DNA from: Hesseltinella vesiculosa
Lineage: Eukaryota; Mucoromycota; Mucoromycetes; Mucorales; Cunninghamellaceae
DNA length: 64,000 bases
Reading direction: 5' to 3'
Assembly (NCBI GenBank): GCA_002104935.1
Contig: MCGT01000025.1
Location: 124,001-188,000, forward strand
The notes under the pieces are model-generated. The model was not told the origin of the DNA. It did not search any database and saw nothing but the letters and a program-made list of their open reading frames with translations. The translations under genes were made by a program, and so were the position numbers. Below are positions 56,170-64,000 of this stretch, in pieces. How positions within the stretch are numbered: the first letter of the stretch is position 1; each line of letters starts with the position of its first letter.

Positions 56170-56326
56170 TCCTGAAGGGCAGCTTAAAAAAATGGAAAAT
56201 GAAAGAAAGTCAAAAAAAAGGAGAAAAAAAAAAAAAAAAAAGACGTGAGCTTTTTCAAGCTTGAGAGCAAAAATGGAACCAAAAACATTTTCCTAATTTG
56301 GTCAAAGAAGTGAGTGCAATCTTTCT

Positions 56327-57025
56327 TTGAAGAAAGCTGACTTCCATTCTATCGAAAGAAACAGCCCAGCAAAGATCGAAGAGAGGCATGATTGGGTTCG
56401 TAAATGGGAAAATACTGACATGAATTTTTTGACGAATTGCGTGTTTCTTGACGAGTCAGCTTTTGATATCAATATGAAACGCTCAAGAGCTTGGTCCAAA
56501 AAAGGTACGCGTGCCATTGTCACCCGACCTACTACGAGAGCAAACACAACATCGATATTGGGAGCTATCTCTGCATCAGGTTTAATTACAGTTGGCGTGA
56601 AAAAACCGAGACCTACTAAGAAGAGAAAAGCTGATGGGTATATTAGTTCAGGAACTGTGACGGGTCACTACATTAGTTTTTTAAAAATGACTCTCGATGA
56701 AATGGACAAGCATCCACATATGAAAGGTCACTATATAGTCATGGATAATGCGCCCATTCACACCCATGAAAACATAAAGAAGTACATTGAGTATCGAAGA
56801 TATAAATGTGTGTATCTTCCTACTTACTCCCCTGAGCTTAACCCAATAGAGCAATTCTGGGCAGTGGCGAAAAGTAAGGTGAAGCGCCATAGGTTTTTGC
56901 AGGAAGACACTTTATCAAAAAGAATTACGGAGGCTTGCAAAAGTATAGAAAAAGGTCACTTCAAAGGCTTCGTTTCGCATTCTTACAGGTGTTGGGATAA
57001 ATGTCGAAACAGAGAGCCCATGTAA
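56327..57025 (+). CDS. DDE transposase, Tc1/IS630-like, N-terminally truncated
   Basis: The open frame reads 232 residues to a stop at 57023; coding similarity starts a little upstream near 56310 (NLSLKKADFHSIERNSP). The catalytic triad is intact: first Asp in VFLDESAFDINMKRSRAW, second in YIVMDNAPIHTHENIKK, and Glu in YSPELNPIEQFW. There are 34 residues between the second Asp and the Glu (DD34E). RPTTRANTTSILGAISASGL is also typical. The N-terminal helix-turn-helix part is missing: frames before 56310 are closed by stops, so the copy is 5'-truncated or has an unseen upstream exon. Only about 90 bases separate its stop from the minisatellite. Confidence 0.85.
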   Translation: MKKADFHSIERNSPAKIEERHDWVRKWENTDMNFLTNCVFLDESAFDINMKRSRAWSKKGTRAIVTRPTTRANTTSILGAISASGLITVGVKKPRPTKKRKADGYISSGTVTGHYISFLKMTLDEMDKHPHMKGHYIVMDNAPIHTHENIKKYIEYRRYKCVYLPTYSPELNPIEQFWAVAKSKVKRHRFLQEDTLSKRITEACKSIEKGHFKGFVSHSYRCWDKCRNREPM

Positions 57026-57112
57026 TAGCCGCTAATGGCTTTATCTAATGCTAATAATGTGGCGATTAACATAAATTCCACATTTGACATGACCCAAACA
57101 AAATTTTCTATA

Positions 57113-59672
57113 AAATGCATGCCTCGACACACCACAGCACACTTCGACACACTTCGACACACCACGACACACTACGGCACACTTCAACACACCACGACAC
57201 ATCGTTCGACACACCACGACACACCTCGGCACACCTCGGCACACCACGACACACCACGACACACCACGGCACATCGCTCGACACACCACGGCACACCACG
57301 GCACATCGCTCGACACACCACGGCACACCACGGCACACCACGGCACACTTCAACACACCACGACACATCGTTCGACACACCACGGCACACCACGACACAC
57401 CACGACACACCACGGCACACCACGGCACATCGCTCGACACACCACGGCACACCACGGCACACCACGGCACACTTCAACACACCACGACACATCGTTCGAC
57501 ACACCACGGCACACCACGGCACACTTCAACACACCACGGCACACTTCGACACACCACGGCACACTTCGACACACCACGGCACACCACGGCACACTTCAAC
57601 ACACCAAGACACACTTCAACACACCACGGCACATCGTTCGACACACCACGACACACCACGACACACCACGGCACACCACGACACACCACGGCACACCACG
57701 GCACACCAAGACACACCACAGCACACCACGGCACATCGCTCGACACACCACGGCACACCACGGCACACCACGGCACACTTCAACACACCACGACACATCG
57801 TTCGACACACCACGGCACACCACGGCACACTTCAACACACCACGGCACACTTCGACACACCACGGCACACTTCGACACACCACGGCACACCACGGCACAC
57901 TTCAACACACCAAGACACACTTCAACACACCACGGCACATCGTTCGACACACCACGGCACACCACGACACACCACGGCACACCACGACACACCACGGCAC
58001 ACCACGGCACACCAAGACACACCACGGCACACCACGGCACACTTCAACACACCACGACACATCGTTCGACACACCACGGCACACTTCAACACACCTCAGC
58101 ACACCACGACACATCGTTCGACACACCACGGCACACCACGGCACACTTCAACACACCAAGACACACTTCAACACACCACGGCACATCGTTCGACACACCA
58201 CGGCACACCACGACACACCACGGCACACCACGGCACACCAAGACACACCACGGCACACCACGGCACACTTCAACACACCACGGCACACCACGACACACCA
58301 CGACACACCACGACACACCACGGCACACGCTCGACACACCACGGCACATCGCTCGACACACCACGGCACACCACGGCACACCACGGCACACCACGGCACA
58401 CTTCAACACACCAAGACACACTTCAACACACCACGGCACATCGTTCGACACACCACGGCACACCACGACACACCACGGCACACCACGGCACACCACGGCA
58501 CACCACGGCACACCACGGCACATCGCTCGACACACCACGGCACACCACGGCACATCGCTCGACACACCACGGCACACCACGGCACACCACGGCACACTTC
58601 AACACACCACGACACATCGTTCGACACACCACGGCACACCACGACACACCACGACACACCACGCACACCACGGCACATCGCTCGACACACCACGGCACAC
58701 CACGGCACACCACGGCACACTTCAACACACCACGACACATCGTTCGACACACCACGGCACACCACGGCACACTTCAACACACCACGGCACACTTCGACAC
58801 ACCACGGCACACTTCGACACACCACGGCACACCACGGCACACTTCAACACACCAAGACACACTTCAACACACCACGGCACATCGTTCGACACACCACGGC
58901 ACACCACGACACACCACGGCACACCACGACACACCACGGCACACCACGGCACACCAAGACACACCACGGCACACCACGGCACACTTCAACACACCACGAC
59001 ACATCGTTCGACACACCACGGCACACTTCAACACACCTCAGCACACCACGACACACCACGGCACATCGCTCGACACACCACGGCACATCGCTCGGCACAC
59101 CAAGACACACCACGGCACACCACGACACACCACGACACACCACGGCACATCGCTCGACACACCACGGCACACCACGGCACACTTCAACACACCACGGCAC
59201 ACCAAGACACACCACGGCACACCACGGCACACTTCAACACACCAAGACACACTTCAACACACCACGGCACATCGTTCGACACACCACGACACACCACGAC
59301 ACACCACGGCACACCACGGCACACCACGGCACACCACGGCACACCACGGCACACCAAGACACACCACGGCACACCACGGCACACTTCAACACACCACGGC
59401 ACATCGCTCGACACACCACGGCACATCGCTCGACACACCACGGCACACCACGGCACACTTCAACACACCACGGCACACTTCGACACACCACGGCACACTT
59501 CGACACACCACGGCACACCACGGCACACTTCAACACACCAAGACACACTTCAACACACCACGGCACATCGTTCGACACACCACAGCACACCACGACACAC
59601 CACGGCACATCGCTCGACACACCACGGCACACCACGGCACACCACGGCACACTTCGACACATCGCTCGACAA
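57113..59672 (+). repeat. minisatellite array, left arm (10-bp unit)
   Basis: About 2.56 kb of near-perfect units of 10 bases, ACACCACGGC and variants (ACACCACGAC, ACACTTCAAC, ACACTTCGAC, ACACCAAGAC), broken at intervals by a 12-base form ACATCGCTCGAC or ACATCGTTCGAC. The variants are ordered, not random. The string CTTCAACACACCAAGAC recurs seven times, about 250-440 bases apart, marking higher-order blocks. The + strand is C/A-rich. Because 10 is not a multiple of 3 and units lack stops, several frames on both strands stay open; none is likely to be a gene. Confidence 0.97.
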
Positions 59673-59868
59673 TTCTCATGATCCATGGTTTGTTTGCAAA
59701 TGTCGCAGGAAAAGAGATCCAACTCTTTTTTTTTGCAACTGAAGTGACAAGCCTAATGCAGCTAATGGTCTGTATAAGTTCATTTCCTTTGTATTGCGTG
59801 ATTATTTTTACAGAACTAAATGACCTTATCTTTGTTATCTTTTCTTTTCTTTTGTTGTGTGCTAGAAA
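59673..59868 (+). repeat. inner unique flank of left inverted arm
   Basis: About 195 bases from GACAATTCTCATGATCCATG to the TTGTGTGCTAG region. It is matched in reverse complement by 61853-62051 with only about half a dozen differences, the identity falling at the core side in an A/T-rich stretch. Together with the array it makes one very long terminal-type inverted repeat. Confidence 0.93.
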
Positions 59869-59955
59869 ATCAACATAAAGCAAACAAAAAAAACTTTGCC
59901 CAAAAATTTTTTTGAAGTTGCCCTTTCTCTTTTTTGAATATTTTTTTTTTCCTTC

Positions 59956-60177
59956 ATGGAAGCAATAACCCGTGAACAAGCAATATGTATGTTCTATGGT
60001 GTCGAATTCAACAAAAGAAATGCAATTCGGTTATTGAAAACTATTGATGACCTTGGGGAACTGGACATATGCTTTCAAATTGACCCTGAGAAGCCTGTGT
60101 TGGTAACTCGGAAGAAAATCTTGGCAGAACCTCATCATTTTAAAAGCTATTCCTCGTCGCATGCAACAACAAAATAG
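59956..60177 (+). CDS. 73-residue stand-alone copy of the recombinase N-terminal domain
   Basis: A short frame starts just after a T run. It aligns with the N-terminus of the convergent gene at 60287-61584. Both have QAICMFYG, then (N)IDICWQI/LDICFQI, PE-x-PVL, and a FK(S/R)Y end. Here the reading stops right after that domain, so it lacks the middle and catalytic parts. It could be an inhibitor or DNA-binding decoy, a remnant of a second recombinase, or an alternative first exon. Sequence alone cannot separate these. The two genes converge with about 110 bases between their stops. Confidence 0.65.
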   Translation: MEAITREQAICMFYGVEFNKRNAIRLLKTIDDLGELDICFQIDPEKPVLVTRKKILAEPHHFKSYSSSHATTK

Positions 60178-60286
60178 AACATCTTTTGAATTCGAATTCT
60201 TACTCTTTGTAAGAATGAATTTTTTTTTTGTATTTATTTTTTATTTGATGCACTAGAACCTTCGCTTGAATAAAAGGATGCTGTTC

Positions 60287-61584
60287 CTATTTTGACCGTT
60301 GCAAGCATTTTTTTCTGCAGTCGAATACTGACAACACGGACGGATTCTCAATGATTTCATGTCGACGCAATGTAATCACCCGGTTGCTCTCCATGAGCTG
60401 ATCAATAATGATAATTTCCAAATTCTCGTGGTCCCTTTGTTGTAAAATTCGTAATTGTGTTAGCTACTTATTCTTCGATGTTTACAACTTACTTCACAAA
60501 GTCTTCGAGATCCTTCGGGTTTGTCGTGAGCCCGGCAAAGTCAATTGCCACAAGGCAAATTTTCTTTTCACAAGAAGAAATGTATCCGATCATATCTACA
60601 AAAAAAAATATTACCACATCTCCATGGCTGCACACGCACTGAAATTCTTACCCTGTGTATTTCCGTTGGTGGAAGAGCCAATATTGTTGTGTTTTTTTGT
60701 ATCTCTTGCTGATAATCGTTCCGAAGCCGAAGAGACAAACGATACGAAGCATTTGTCAACCAAGGATCTGATTTTCAGATTTCGCACCATTGCCTCAAGA
60801 TTGGCCTCACGGTTTAATTCAATACCAAGCGACTTGCGAGCGTATCCTATGATCTCGTAGCCATCGTCCTTGAACATCTTGATTTCAGTTTGGTATCGCG
60901 GAATGTAACTTGTAATGTTTATAACCAGATCGTCTATCATTAGAAAAGAAAAAAAATGAGCATATTGGTGAAATACCTGGTATTCATTTTATGGCTACCC
61001 CTGTATTCTTTTTTGAGGACATGTAACTGCCGTGATCGTTTCTGCTTGCCTCCTTGTTTTCGTTTTCGCGAGAATGGGGCATTGAGAAAATTCACCTTTG
61101 CGCGCGTGCACCACTGGGTAAATGCTCTCGGCGACATGTCTTCTAGCTTTTCCGAATACGGCATGATTATTCGGTAAATCATAGTTGGCGACACTTCAAT
61201 CAGGTCGTAGCAGCTTAGCATGGGTTCATCGTTCAAAAACACGGCGTTCAGGAACTGCAGTAATTGCGTATCAGATTCTACACGGTGGCAACCAAGGTAA
61301 GTATACAAAATTTACTAAAGTGCAAGTTGCTTACTCAGTGACGGCTTCTCTTCAATGTGCTCTTCGTCAGGCTTTGCATCAAGGTACCGTTTAAAGGTGA
61401 GCGGCATGGAGTTGATCATCGTCGTCCTGGCAAGAACAGGAAGCTCTGGCGATATTTGCCAGCAAATGTCGATATTTACCATCTCGTTCAACTTGTCACG
61501 AAGCCGACGTTCATTTTCCTGCGAATGTACTTCACCATAGAACATGCATATAGCCTGTCCTTTTGTGAATTGTGTGCTTGTCAT
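60287..61584 (-). CDS. resolvase-like (serine recombinase-type) protein of a zygomycete mobile element
   Basis: Five exons, 61584-61335, 61277-60999, 60933-60652, 60595-60493 and 60434-60287, keep frame through all joins, giving 353 residues. Residues 1-80 form a small domain (QAICMFYGEVHSQENERRL; IDICWQISPELPVLA). Residues 85-175 are a basic, probably DNA-binding region (VSPTMIYRIIMPYSEKLEDM; FSRKRKQGGKQKRSRQ). Residues 177-353 resemble a resolvase catalytic domain: YEIIGYARKS (placing a Ser where serine recombinases have GYARVS), RSLVDKCFVS, LSARDTKK, then CLVAIDFAGLTTNPKDLEDF, which fits the LDRLGR-type strand-helix. The recombinase assignment is by pattern and memory of related repeated genes in zygomycetes; catalysis is unproven. 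Confidence 0.6.
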
Positions 61585-61657
61585 TTTTAAGAAGATAACG
61601 AAATGAGAAAAGGAGCTTTTTTTTTTTTTTTTGATTTCACGAACCTCCCCGCTCAAA

Positions 61658-61852
61658 GCGTCTCACGTGATTTGTTGCACCATCAATGAAGCTATCTTTC
61701 CACCAAAATATGCCACAAATCGGAACTTGTCATAGGAAATTGAGCCTTAGAATGGGTAGGTTGAATAAATGTGGCCCAAAACGTGATCTTGTGTTAACAG
61801 ACTAACTGACAAAAAGTGCAACTTTTTCAACTGCAGATAGTTTACCAGCACA
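61658..61852. other. core sequence between recombinase promoter and right arm
   Basis: Presumed promoter of the recombinase-like gene lies just before this (T run at 61618-61632). No other reading frame or repeat is seen here. Confidence 0.4.
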
Positions 61853-62051
61853 TACTAAAATGAAAAGAAAATGAAAGGGATAACAAAGATAAGGTCATTT
61901 AGTTCTGTAAAAATAATCGCCCAATACAAAGGAAATGAACTTATACAGACAATTAGCTCCATTAGGCTTGTGACTTCAGTTGCAAAAAAAAAGAGTTGGA
62001 TCTCTTTTCCTGCGACATTTGCAAACAAACCATGGATCATGAGAATTGTCG
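61853..62051 (-). repeat. inner unique flank of right inverted arm
   Basis: This is the reverse complement of 59673-59868, with the same AAAAGAGATCCAACTC and GGTTTGTTTGCAAATGTCGC landmarks. Differences cluster as single bases around AAGCCTAATG(C/G)AGCTAAT and TATTG(C/G)G(T/C)GATT. Confidence 0.93.
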
Positions 62052-64000
62052 AGCGATGTGTCGAAGTGTGCCATGGTGTGCCGTGGTGTGCCGTGATGTG
62101 CCGTGGTGTGTCGAGCGATGTGCCGTGGTGTGTCGTGGTGTGTCGTGGTGTGCCGTGGTGTGTTGAAGTGTGCCGTGGTGTGTCGTGGTGTGCCGTGGTG
62201 TGTCGAGCGATGTGCCGTGGTGTGTCGTGGTGTGTCGTGGTGTGCCGTGGTGTGTTGAAGTGTGCCGTGGTGTGCCGTGGTGTGTCTTGGTGTGCCGTGG
62301 TGTGCCGTGGTGTGTCGAAGTGTGCCGTGGTGTGTCGAAGTGTGCCGTGGTGTGTTGAAGTGTGCCGTGGTGTGCCGTGGTGTGTCGAGCGATGTGCCGT
62401 GGTGTGTCGAGCGATGTGCCGTGGTGTGTCGTGGTGTGTCGTGGTGTGTCGTGGTGTGCCGTGGTGTGTCGTGGTGTGCCGTGGTGTGTTGAAGTGTGCC
62501 GTGGTGTGCCGTGGTGTGTCGAGCGATGTGCCGTGGTGTGTCGTGCGTGTGTCGTGGTGTGTTGAAGTGTGCCGTGGTGTGCCGTGGTGTGTCTTGGTGT
62601 GCCGTGGTGTGCCGTGGTGTGCCGTGGTGTGCCGTGGTGTGTCGAAGTGTGCCGTGGTGTGTCGAAGTGTGCCGTGGTGTGTTGAAGTGTGCCGTGGTGT
62701 GCCGTGGTGTGTCGAGCGATGTGCCGTGGTGTGTCGAGCGATGTGCCGTGGTGTGTTGAAGTGTGCCGTGGTGTGCCGTGGTGTGTCTTGGTGTGCCGTG
62801 GTGTGCCGTGGTGTGCCGTGGTGTTGTCGTGGTGTGTCGTGGTGTGTCGAACGATGTGCCGTGGTGTGTTGAAGTGTGTCTTGGTGTGTTGAAGTGTGCC
62901 GTGGTGTGCCGTGGTGTGTCGAAGTGTGCCGTGGTGTGTCGAAGTGTGCCGTGGTGTGTTGAAGTGTGCCGTGGTGTGCCGTGGTGTGTCGAGCGATGTG
63001 CCGTGGTGTGTCGAGCGATGTGCCGTGGTGTGTTGAAGTGTGCCGTGGTGTGCCGTGGTGTGTCTTGGTGTGCCGTGGTGTGCCGTGGTGTGCCGTGGTG
63101 TGCCGTGGTGTGTCGAAGTGTGCCGTGGTGTGTCGAAGTGTGCCGTGGTGTGTTGAAGTGTGCCGTGGTGTGCCGTGGTGTGTCGAGCGATGTGCCGTGG
63201 TGTGTCGAGCGATGTGCCGTGGTGTGTTGAAGTGTGCCGTGGTGTGCCGTGGTGTGTCTTGGTGTGCCGTGGTGTGCCGTGGTGTGCCGTGGTGTTGTCG
63301 TGGTGTGTCGTGGTGTGTCGAACGATGTGCCGTGGTGTGTTGAAGTGTGTCTTGGTGTGTTGAAGTGTGCCGTGGTGTGCCGTGGTGTGTCGAAGTGTGC
63401 CGTGGTGTGTCGAAGTGTGCCGTGGTGTGTTGAAGTGTGCCGTGGTGTGCCGTGGTGTGTCGAGCGATGTGCCGTGGTGTGTCGAGCGATGTGCCGTGGT
63501 GTGTTGAAGTGTGCCGTGGTGTGCCGTGGTGTGTCTTGGTGTGCCGTGGTGTGCCGTGGTGTGTCGTGGTGTGCCGTGGTGTGTCGTGGTGTGCCGTGGT
63601 GTGTCGAACGATGTGTCGTGGTGTGTTGAAGTGTGCCGTGGTGTGCCGTGGTGTGCCGTGGTGTGCCGTGGTGTGCCGTGGTGTGTCGAGCGATGTGCCG
63701 TGGTGTGTCGTGGTGTGTCGTGGTGTGTCGAGCGATGTGTCGTGGTGTGTTGAAGTGTGCCGTGGTGTGCCGTGGTGTGTCGAGCGATGTGCCGTGGTGT
63801 GTCGAACGATGTGCCGTGGTGTGTCGTGGTGTGCCGTGGTGTGTCGAAGTGTGCCGTGGTGTGTCGAAGTGTGCCGTGGTGTGTCGAAGTGTGTCGAAGT
63901 GTGCCGTGGTGTGCCGTGGTGTGTCGAGCGATGTGCCGTGGTGTGTCGAGCGATGTGCCGTGGTGTGTTGAAGTGTGCCGTGGTGTGCCGTGGTGTGCCG
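62052..64000 (-). repeat. minisatellite array, right arm, running off the window
   Basis: This has the same units as the left arm in reverse complement (GTGTGCCGTGG, GTGTGTTGAAG, GTCGAGCGATGT), G/T-rich on +. Two consecutive blocks, 62589-63060 and 63061-63531, are near-copies, sharing even a one-base-short unit (GTGTTGTCG at 62821 and 63292, exactly 471 apart). The outer end is not in the window. Confidence 0.97.

Follow-up and report, generated by a model that had tools for sequence, protein, structure and literature searches.

The palindrome at the right end of the window

The window analysed here is a 64,000-nucleotide stretch of the genome of Hesseltinella vesiculosa (C18:124001-188000), and the genome searched comprises 27.05 Mb in 85 contigs. 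Positions without a contig prefix are those of the window. Near its right end, a core of about 2.0 kb is enclosed by inverted arms that are built largely of a 10-bp minisatellite. This feature is probably the interior of a decayed, palindromic Tc1/mariner-type transposon, from a subfamily with giant, transposase-bearing inverted repeats. The features of the locus are as follows; arrays were delimited with Tandem Repeats Finder (TRF).

56306..57025, + strand: left arm, Tc1-type (DDE_3) transposase gene truncated at 56306, 3´ part retained (PF13358, E 1.2e-30 for 56327-57025)
57026..57127, + strand: left arm, spacer from the transposase stop to the array, within a 913-bp near-identical stretch
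57128..59652, + strand: left-arm 10-bp minisatellite, unit CACACCACGG, 246.5 copies (TRF)
59670..59853, + strand: left-arm inner flank, inverted partner at 61863-62048 (95% identity)
59956..60177, + strand: short open reading frame (ORF) of 73 aa, limited to the N-domain of the core gene family (translation; N-domain match at C18:183965-184156, + strand)
60287..61584, - strand: core gene in about five putative exons with open frames, encoding an N-domain, a middle part and a serine-recombinase-like domain (GYARKS, IDFAGLT; from translations and motifs)
61863..62048, - strand: right-arm inner flank, partner of 59670-59853 (95% identity)
62066..64000 and on to C18:188241, - strand: right-arm minisatellite, the same 10-bp unit inverted (GTGTGCCGTG, the reverse complement of CACACCACGG; TRF)
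C18:188347-189042, outside the window: right arm, inverted transposase copy with a 411-aa open frame; arm homology continues to about C18:189561

The preliminary description of this locus reported an inverted 10-bp minisatellite with its flank on either side of a 2-kb core that holds two convergent genes, and this anatomy is borne out. The arrays measure 2.5 kb on the left and 2.2 kb on the right, where the array extends 241 bp past the window edge to a total of 212.5 copies; the flank of about 185 bp has its inverted partner as its sole other match in the genome; and the 73-aa ORF faces the larger gene, which runs from 61584 to 60287. The TRF scores of the arrays are 2366 and 1977, whereas positions 1-55000 of the window contain a single array with a period of at least 6 and a score of at least 100 (score 107), so that a chance origin can be dismissed. 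A 24-mer of the array, allowing up to two mismatches, matched the whole genome at 97 forward and 79 reverse positions (reversed control, 0), all of which fall within these two arrays. The unit is peculiar to this locus. When the order of the units was compared between the arrays (250 vs 212 units), the commonest variants and longer blocks were found in both, in a reshuffled order, which would fit expansion of the arrays after the arms had formed.

The inversion is larger than the arrays: beyond each of them lies a transposase copy of the Tc1 type (DDE_3), the two copies being inverted relative to each other. The 913 bp inward from 56306 differ from the right arm by one mismatch, at 56984, and extend from the end of the transposase gene across the spacer into the array, of which they include the first 100 bp. 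Homology of the right arm to its relatives stops near C18:189561, and a genome pattern search placed no end of this Tc1 subfamily on C18 at up to three mismatches. Both outer ends are therefore missing from this copy; the left arm is cut at 56306 and the right arm, at a different point, near C18:189561.

The difficulty of assembling long inverted arrays speaks for an artefact of assembly. However, the arms differ in array length, unit order, flank (5%), transposase part (one base) and cut-off points, so that the palindrome is not an assembly mirror, and other loci show the same plan. An artefact is extremely improbable.

Relatives with both ends

The arrays had been proposed as the ends of the element. 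This proposal fails, because the arms continue outward into the inverted transposase and the true ends are found at two relatives. The C1 element (C1:937916-944684, 6.8 kb) has arms of 1648 bp that are 100% identical. The C27 element (C27:123067-129958, 6.9 kb) has arms of about 2.1 kb at 98% identity, with one base difference away from the inner edge and a 40-bp difference in array length. Both elements start with TACAGTG and finish with CACTGTA, and CAGTG ends at TA are the signature of Tc1/mariner. Their edges share TA only, with no target duplication of 8-10 bp.

From the outside in, the terminal inverted repeats of C1 and C27 (1.6-2.1 kb) consist of the TA-CAGTG end, 23-bp subterminal repeats that share GCCAATCA directly inside the end, and a whole DD34E transposase gene. 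In C27, the arms continue past the transposase with a minisatellite and then the 5´ end of the cargo gene, a 95-aa zinc-finger-like ORF. By inference, the inverted part of C18 likewise reaches the 5´ end of its cargo gene. The transposase frame is whole in each arm (498 aa in both arms of C1, 446 and 513 aa in those of C27). The C1 transposase matches PF13358 (DDE_3) above the cut-off (E 8.3e-30) and several helix-turn-helix families below theirs, and 34 residues separate its second D from the E. The transposase, this spacing and the CAGTG ends at TA are thus those of canonical Tc1/mariner (IS630-Tc1) elements. Tc1/mariner elements normally carry one transposase gene between two inverted repeats, whereas here the whole gene lies within each repeat and cargo lies between them. 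The cargo is of two kinds, a serine-recombinase-like gene (C18 and C1) or a zinc-finger/nuclease-like gene (C27 and C85b).

Searching the genome with the end pattern at up to three mismatches gave 23 matches (reversed control, 3), and C1 and C27 are the only places where inverted ends pair within 10 kb. This search returned no single-transposase member with both ends, which would represent the ancestral form. The C54 locus has one end and a transposase, but a second end is absent from the following 1.5 kb.

The cargo could also have been trapped between two complete, inverted Tc1 copies, as happens with IS copies in bacteria, and the transposase in both arms and the variable cargo would suit such a composite. 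However, no exact Tc1 end was found at the inner side of the C1 or C27 arms, and with up to two mismatches in 12 the single match falls within the stop region of the C27 transposase; neither flanking copy has two ends of its own. The two arms of C27, like those of C18, moreover share non-Tc1 sequence past the transposase. The composite was rejected for its lack of inner ends and is very unlikely.

The loci C85b and C85c are further remnants with the same inverted pairing of transposase pieces. All five paired loci (C18, C1, C27, C85b and C85c) have the same orientation, with the transposase 3´ ends inward. The arms are 98-100% identical within C1 and within C27, compared with 81-87% between elements, which indicates that the arms evolve together.

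A comparison made for an empty site at C1 found its left flank to be an end of a different Tc1 family, which has a TA in common with the C1 palindrome. This second, seemingly ordinary family accounts for 47 of the 48 matches of the C1-flank search (ends at C1:934822-937917, C34:725744-728663 and C4:430392-432264). Its ends stand partly back to back on one shared TA, and the C1 palindrome adjoins such an end; several copies of this family seem to have inserted end to end.

Minisatellites between the transposase copies

A 9-11-bp array lies between the transposase copies at all five paired loci, with a different unit at each: CACACCACGG in C18, GGGTGAAGGT in C27, TCCAAGTGTGG in C1, GCATAGGTAA in C85b and TAGCACGGG in C85c. 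At nine unpaired loci, of which about 1.5 kb was read on each side, no array scored 100 or more. The hypergeometric probability of this split (5/5 vs 0/9) is 1 in 2002, counted by hand after the grouping into paired and unpaired loci had been made. L075, one of 11 further Tc1 fragments, is accompanied at a distance of more than 1 kb by 35-bp arrays, which argues against a strict separation of paired and unpaired loci; a 23-bp array at C54 stays under a score of 100. In C18 and C27 the minisatellite is within both arms, at about 246 vs 212 copies in C18 and about 10 vs 6 in C27, which looks like a young element next to an older-looking C18.

Arrays also occur near core-gene loci outside Tc1 palindromes (5/14, or 6/15 with C37 added). 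Those beside core-gene copies with no visible Tc1 palindrome are at C10:350297-351561 (10 bp), C37:97310-97487 (9 bp), C5:423114-423860 (65 bp) and C1:1699869-1700923 (42-208 bp). At C11:344160-345543 (L025), a 225-bp unit is present in about six tandem copies, and one of its frames corresponds to the beginning of the recombinase-like core gene; the 5´ end of this gene is therefore multiplied in tandem as well as inverted.

The core gene

The preliminary description called a gene of the core resolvase-like. This holds at the level of predicted fold: the C1 core protein, identical over 354 aa to DM01DRAFT_1330986, has a predicted structure with a serine-recombinase-like domain that shows the fold of the catalytic domain, and the window core gene is by this relative predicted to be resolvase-like. 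In profile searches, no Pfam or NCBIfam family was reached at its curated cut-off, PADLOC returned nothing relevant, and PF00239 (Resolvase) had no match in the genome at E 10, while the control matched in 10 of 14 genomes. A plain Foldseek search yielded no match at E ≤0.001, with serine recombinases first appearing at rank 14, and the best sequence match in the PDB is a forkhead domain at E 0.083.

The catalytic residues of gamma-delta resolvase are numbered R8, S10, R68 and R71. Equivalents of R8 and S10 are kept in the core family, with the serine in seven of eight members and a cysteine in P0004. The positions of R68 and R71, where arginines are expected in DRLGR, are occupied by F/Y and L/F in all seven relatives that cover them. 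The family thus lacks two arginines of the catalytic Ser and Arg set. It differs from IS607-type serine transposases in these arginines, in the missing PF00239 match and in a longer N-terminal part (about 200 aa). No catalytic motif is present on the strand of the 73-aa N-domain ORF.

The preliminary description had suggested searching the genome for other copies of the core, and the N-domain has 49 matches there at E ≤0.01. Relatives are present in several Mucorales, and 10 of the 13 clusters with several matches are convergent. Two core-gene pairs have inverted 5´ ends, of 173 bp at 94% (C9b) and 134 bp at 87% (C11). Together with the fold match, these findings would also suit a core that is a mobile element in its own right, driven by the serine-recombinase-like protein and nested in Tc1 DNA. 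Against this stand the replaced DRLGR arginines, the divergent rather than convergent pair in C1 and the absence of target duplications by eye around the C9b and C11 pairs; an independent core element is unlikely.

Core clusters are close to Tc1 matches more often than expected. Among the matches listed, which supplied at least 136 Tc1 places for the test, this applies to 8 of 36 clusters against 1.5 expected (P 9e-5), and to 6 of 34 when C1 and C18 are excluded (P 0.0024). The excess could reflect transposon-rich regions. At C6:563765-568230 and C26:56026-60555, apparently the same core-gene pair accompanies the same Tc1 transposase with a 352-aa frame, and the Tc1 matches on the other side differ; the shared stretch looks like a duplicated or mobile block.

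The zinc-finger/nuclease-like cargo

The C27 cargo is a 301-aa protein with no Pfam match. It contains a VEIKPP motif, and from our own reading of this motif we label it a putative nuclease of the PD-(D/E)XK kind. The accompanying zinc-finger-like piece matches Pfam zinc fingers below their cut-offs only; it lies inside the inverted repeat, with a lone inverted copy on the other arm. In C85b, a search against that single locus found weak matches to both pieces between the arms (E 1e-5 and 9e-5), so that this cargo is found in two of the paired loci. Copies of the family are at C27:126237-127139 (the palindrome cargo), C37:200850-202631 and C24:114197-116411. In C37 and C24 the zinc-finger-like piece is upstream of the nuclease-like relative on one strand, and in C23 the two are 7 kb apart on opposite strands. 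Among the matches listed, C12, C45 and others have a zinc-finger-like relative with no nuclease piece nearby.

Interpretation and proposed mechanism

The C1/C27 layout is best read as an unusual structural variant of the well-known Tc1/mariner family, and C18 as its decayed copy. The idea of a self-contained mobile element, raised in the preliminary description, survives in that the locus is transposon-derived; it falls in that the element is not bounded by its arrays. Being without both Tc1 ends, the window copy itself is classed only as a decayed relative of Tc1/mariner.

In the palindromic element, the arm-encoded transposase would cut at the outer ends and move the whole palindrome as one unit. 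Gene conversion from arm to arm, during repair of a break or a fold-back, would keep the arms alike, and slippage in the same repair may breed a new minisatellite at their inner side. An inverted repeat that extends into the cargo gene would explain the lone 5´ copy that faces the full gene (59956-60177 in C18; the 95-aa zinc-finger-like ORF in C27).

Several findings weigh against this interpretation. Only two both-ended elements are present, both in one genome, the C18 copy has no ends, and no empty site or movement of the palindrome was seen. In C85c, the left transposase is represented by a fragment of 73 bp, which falls short of the gene end, and the minisatellite is on one side only. In C1, the minisatellite is on the left side only, outside the 1648-bp arm, and the short and full core copies are divergent between the arms, so that the cargo-end geometry of C27 does not fit all cases. 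Because the array unit differs at every locus, a common binding role is unsupported. Finally, 28 of the 36 core clusters are more than 5 kb from a Tc1 match among those listed.

Some of these findings would suit a host-made inverted duplication, in which break repair doubled a Tc1 copy, a minisatellite and a gene head-on, and the palindrome was never mobile as a unit. Large palindromes can arise by repair; the missing empty site and the missing C18 ends agree with such an origin, as does the crowding of the C1 locus by other Tc1 copies and ends. However, the shared orientation of the five loci argues against it, as does the presence of the same two cargo kinds at different loci. In C1 and C27, moreover, both arm edges coincide exactly with matching TACAGTG ends, an outcome not to be expected of random duplication. 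We regard a host-made duplication as distinctly unlikely, and the decayed palindromic Tc1/mariner-type transposon remains the preferred explanation.

A more speculative extension, to which we give little credence, is a two-recombinase Tc1 lineage in Mucorales. Each arm would carry a DDE transposase and the arms would repair each other, while the serine-recombinase-like or nuclease-like cargo might assist in the resolution, conversion or inversion of the palindrome. This processing would have left the minisatellites as scars, and the lone N-domain ORF would be a regulator that the arm itself supplies.

Relation to known elements

Inverted arms built of minisatellite had been thought non-standard for known elements, but they are a described feature of foldback-type elements, which include Drosophila FB; what is unusual here is the transposase inside each arm. 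In the cited portions of their descriptions, Tm1 (PMC3169594), Galileo (PMC3573991) and Tetris (PMC4079207) have long inverted repeats that consist partly of tandem repeats, with a copy number that differs between arms. The C18 and C27 elements resemble them in their long, internally repetitive inverted repeats; the C1 array lies outside the arm. According to the same portions, Galileo is a relative of P and Tm1 is Mutator-like (PMC3573991, PMC3169594), target duplications measure 9 bp in Tm1 (PMC3169594) and 8-10 bp in Tetris (PMC4079207), and the known transposases sit between the repeats. In contrast, the present elements combine TA and a Tc1 transposase that is located outside the array.

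Sardine and Thon of Paramecium and Tec of Euplotes are of the Tc1 type and carry extra ORFs as well as a second gene of a recombinase class (PMC3464196). As far as the cited part of that source describes them, Sardine and Thon have long palindromic terminal inverted repeats of 425 and about 700 bp, which by our estimate are too short to hold a transposase; in all three the second gene is a tyrosine recombinase and the hosts are ciliates, unlike here. The mariner elements of algal viruses share a mariner transposase part and differ in their nuclease-type cargo, and the cited part of their description does not include transposase-bearing inverted arms (PMC3627910). In titles and abstract openings, a coverage that includes few subscription papers, no Tc1 element was described whose inverted repeats each contain a whole transposase gene; a literature search on Hesseltinella transposons returned no paper.

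If the interpretation is true, a Tc1/mariner element can hold its transposase gene twice, within its own inverted repeats, and exchange its cargo. Such an element would have a built-in backup copy, and conversion from arm to arm would be a simple way to keep the enzyme intact. The five different 9-11-bp units between inverted transposase copies of one subfamily would then offer a concrete case in which the origin of minisatellites can be studied. The core gene represents a multi-copy fungal family that is unnamed in the libraries searched, with a predicted serine-recombinase-like domain.

Sequence beyond the element

The 16 kb beyond the C18 element contain one array that scores at least 100, by eye within a coding repeat. 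Just right of the element (L006:4662-5058), a 30-bp repeat is seemingly coding, with GGFG-like residues, and appears nucleoporin-like by eye.

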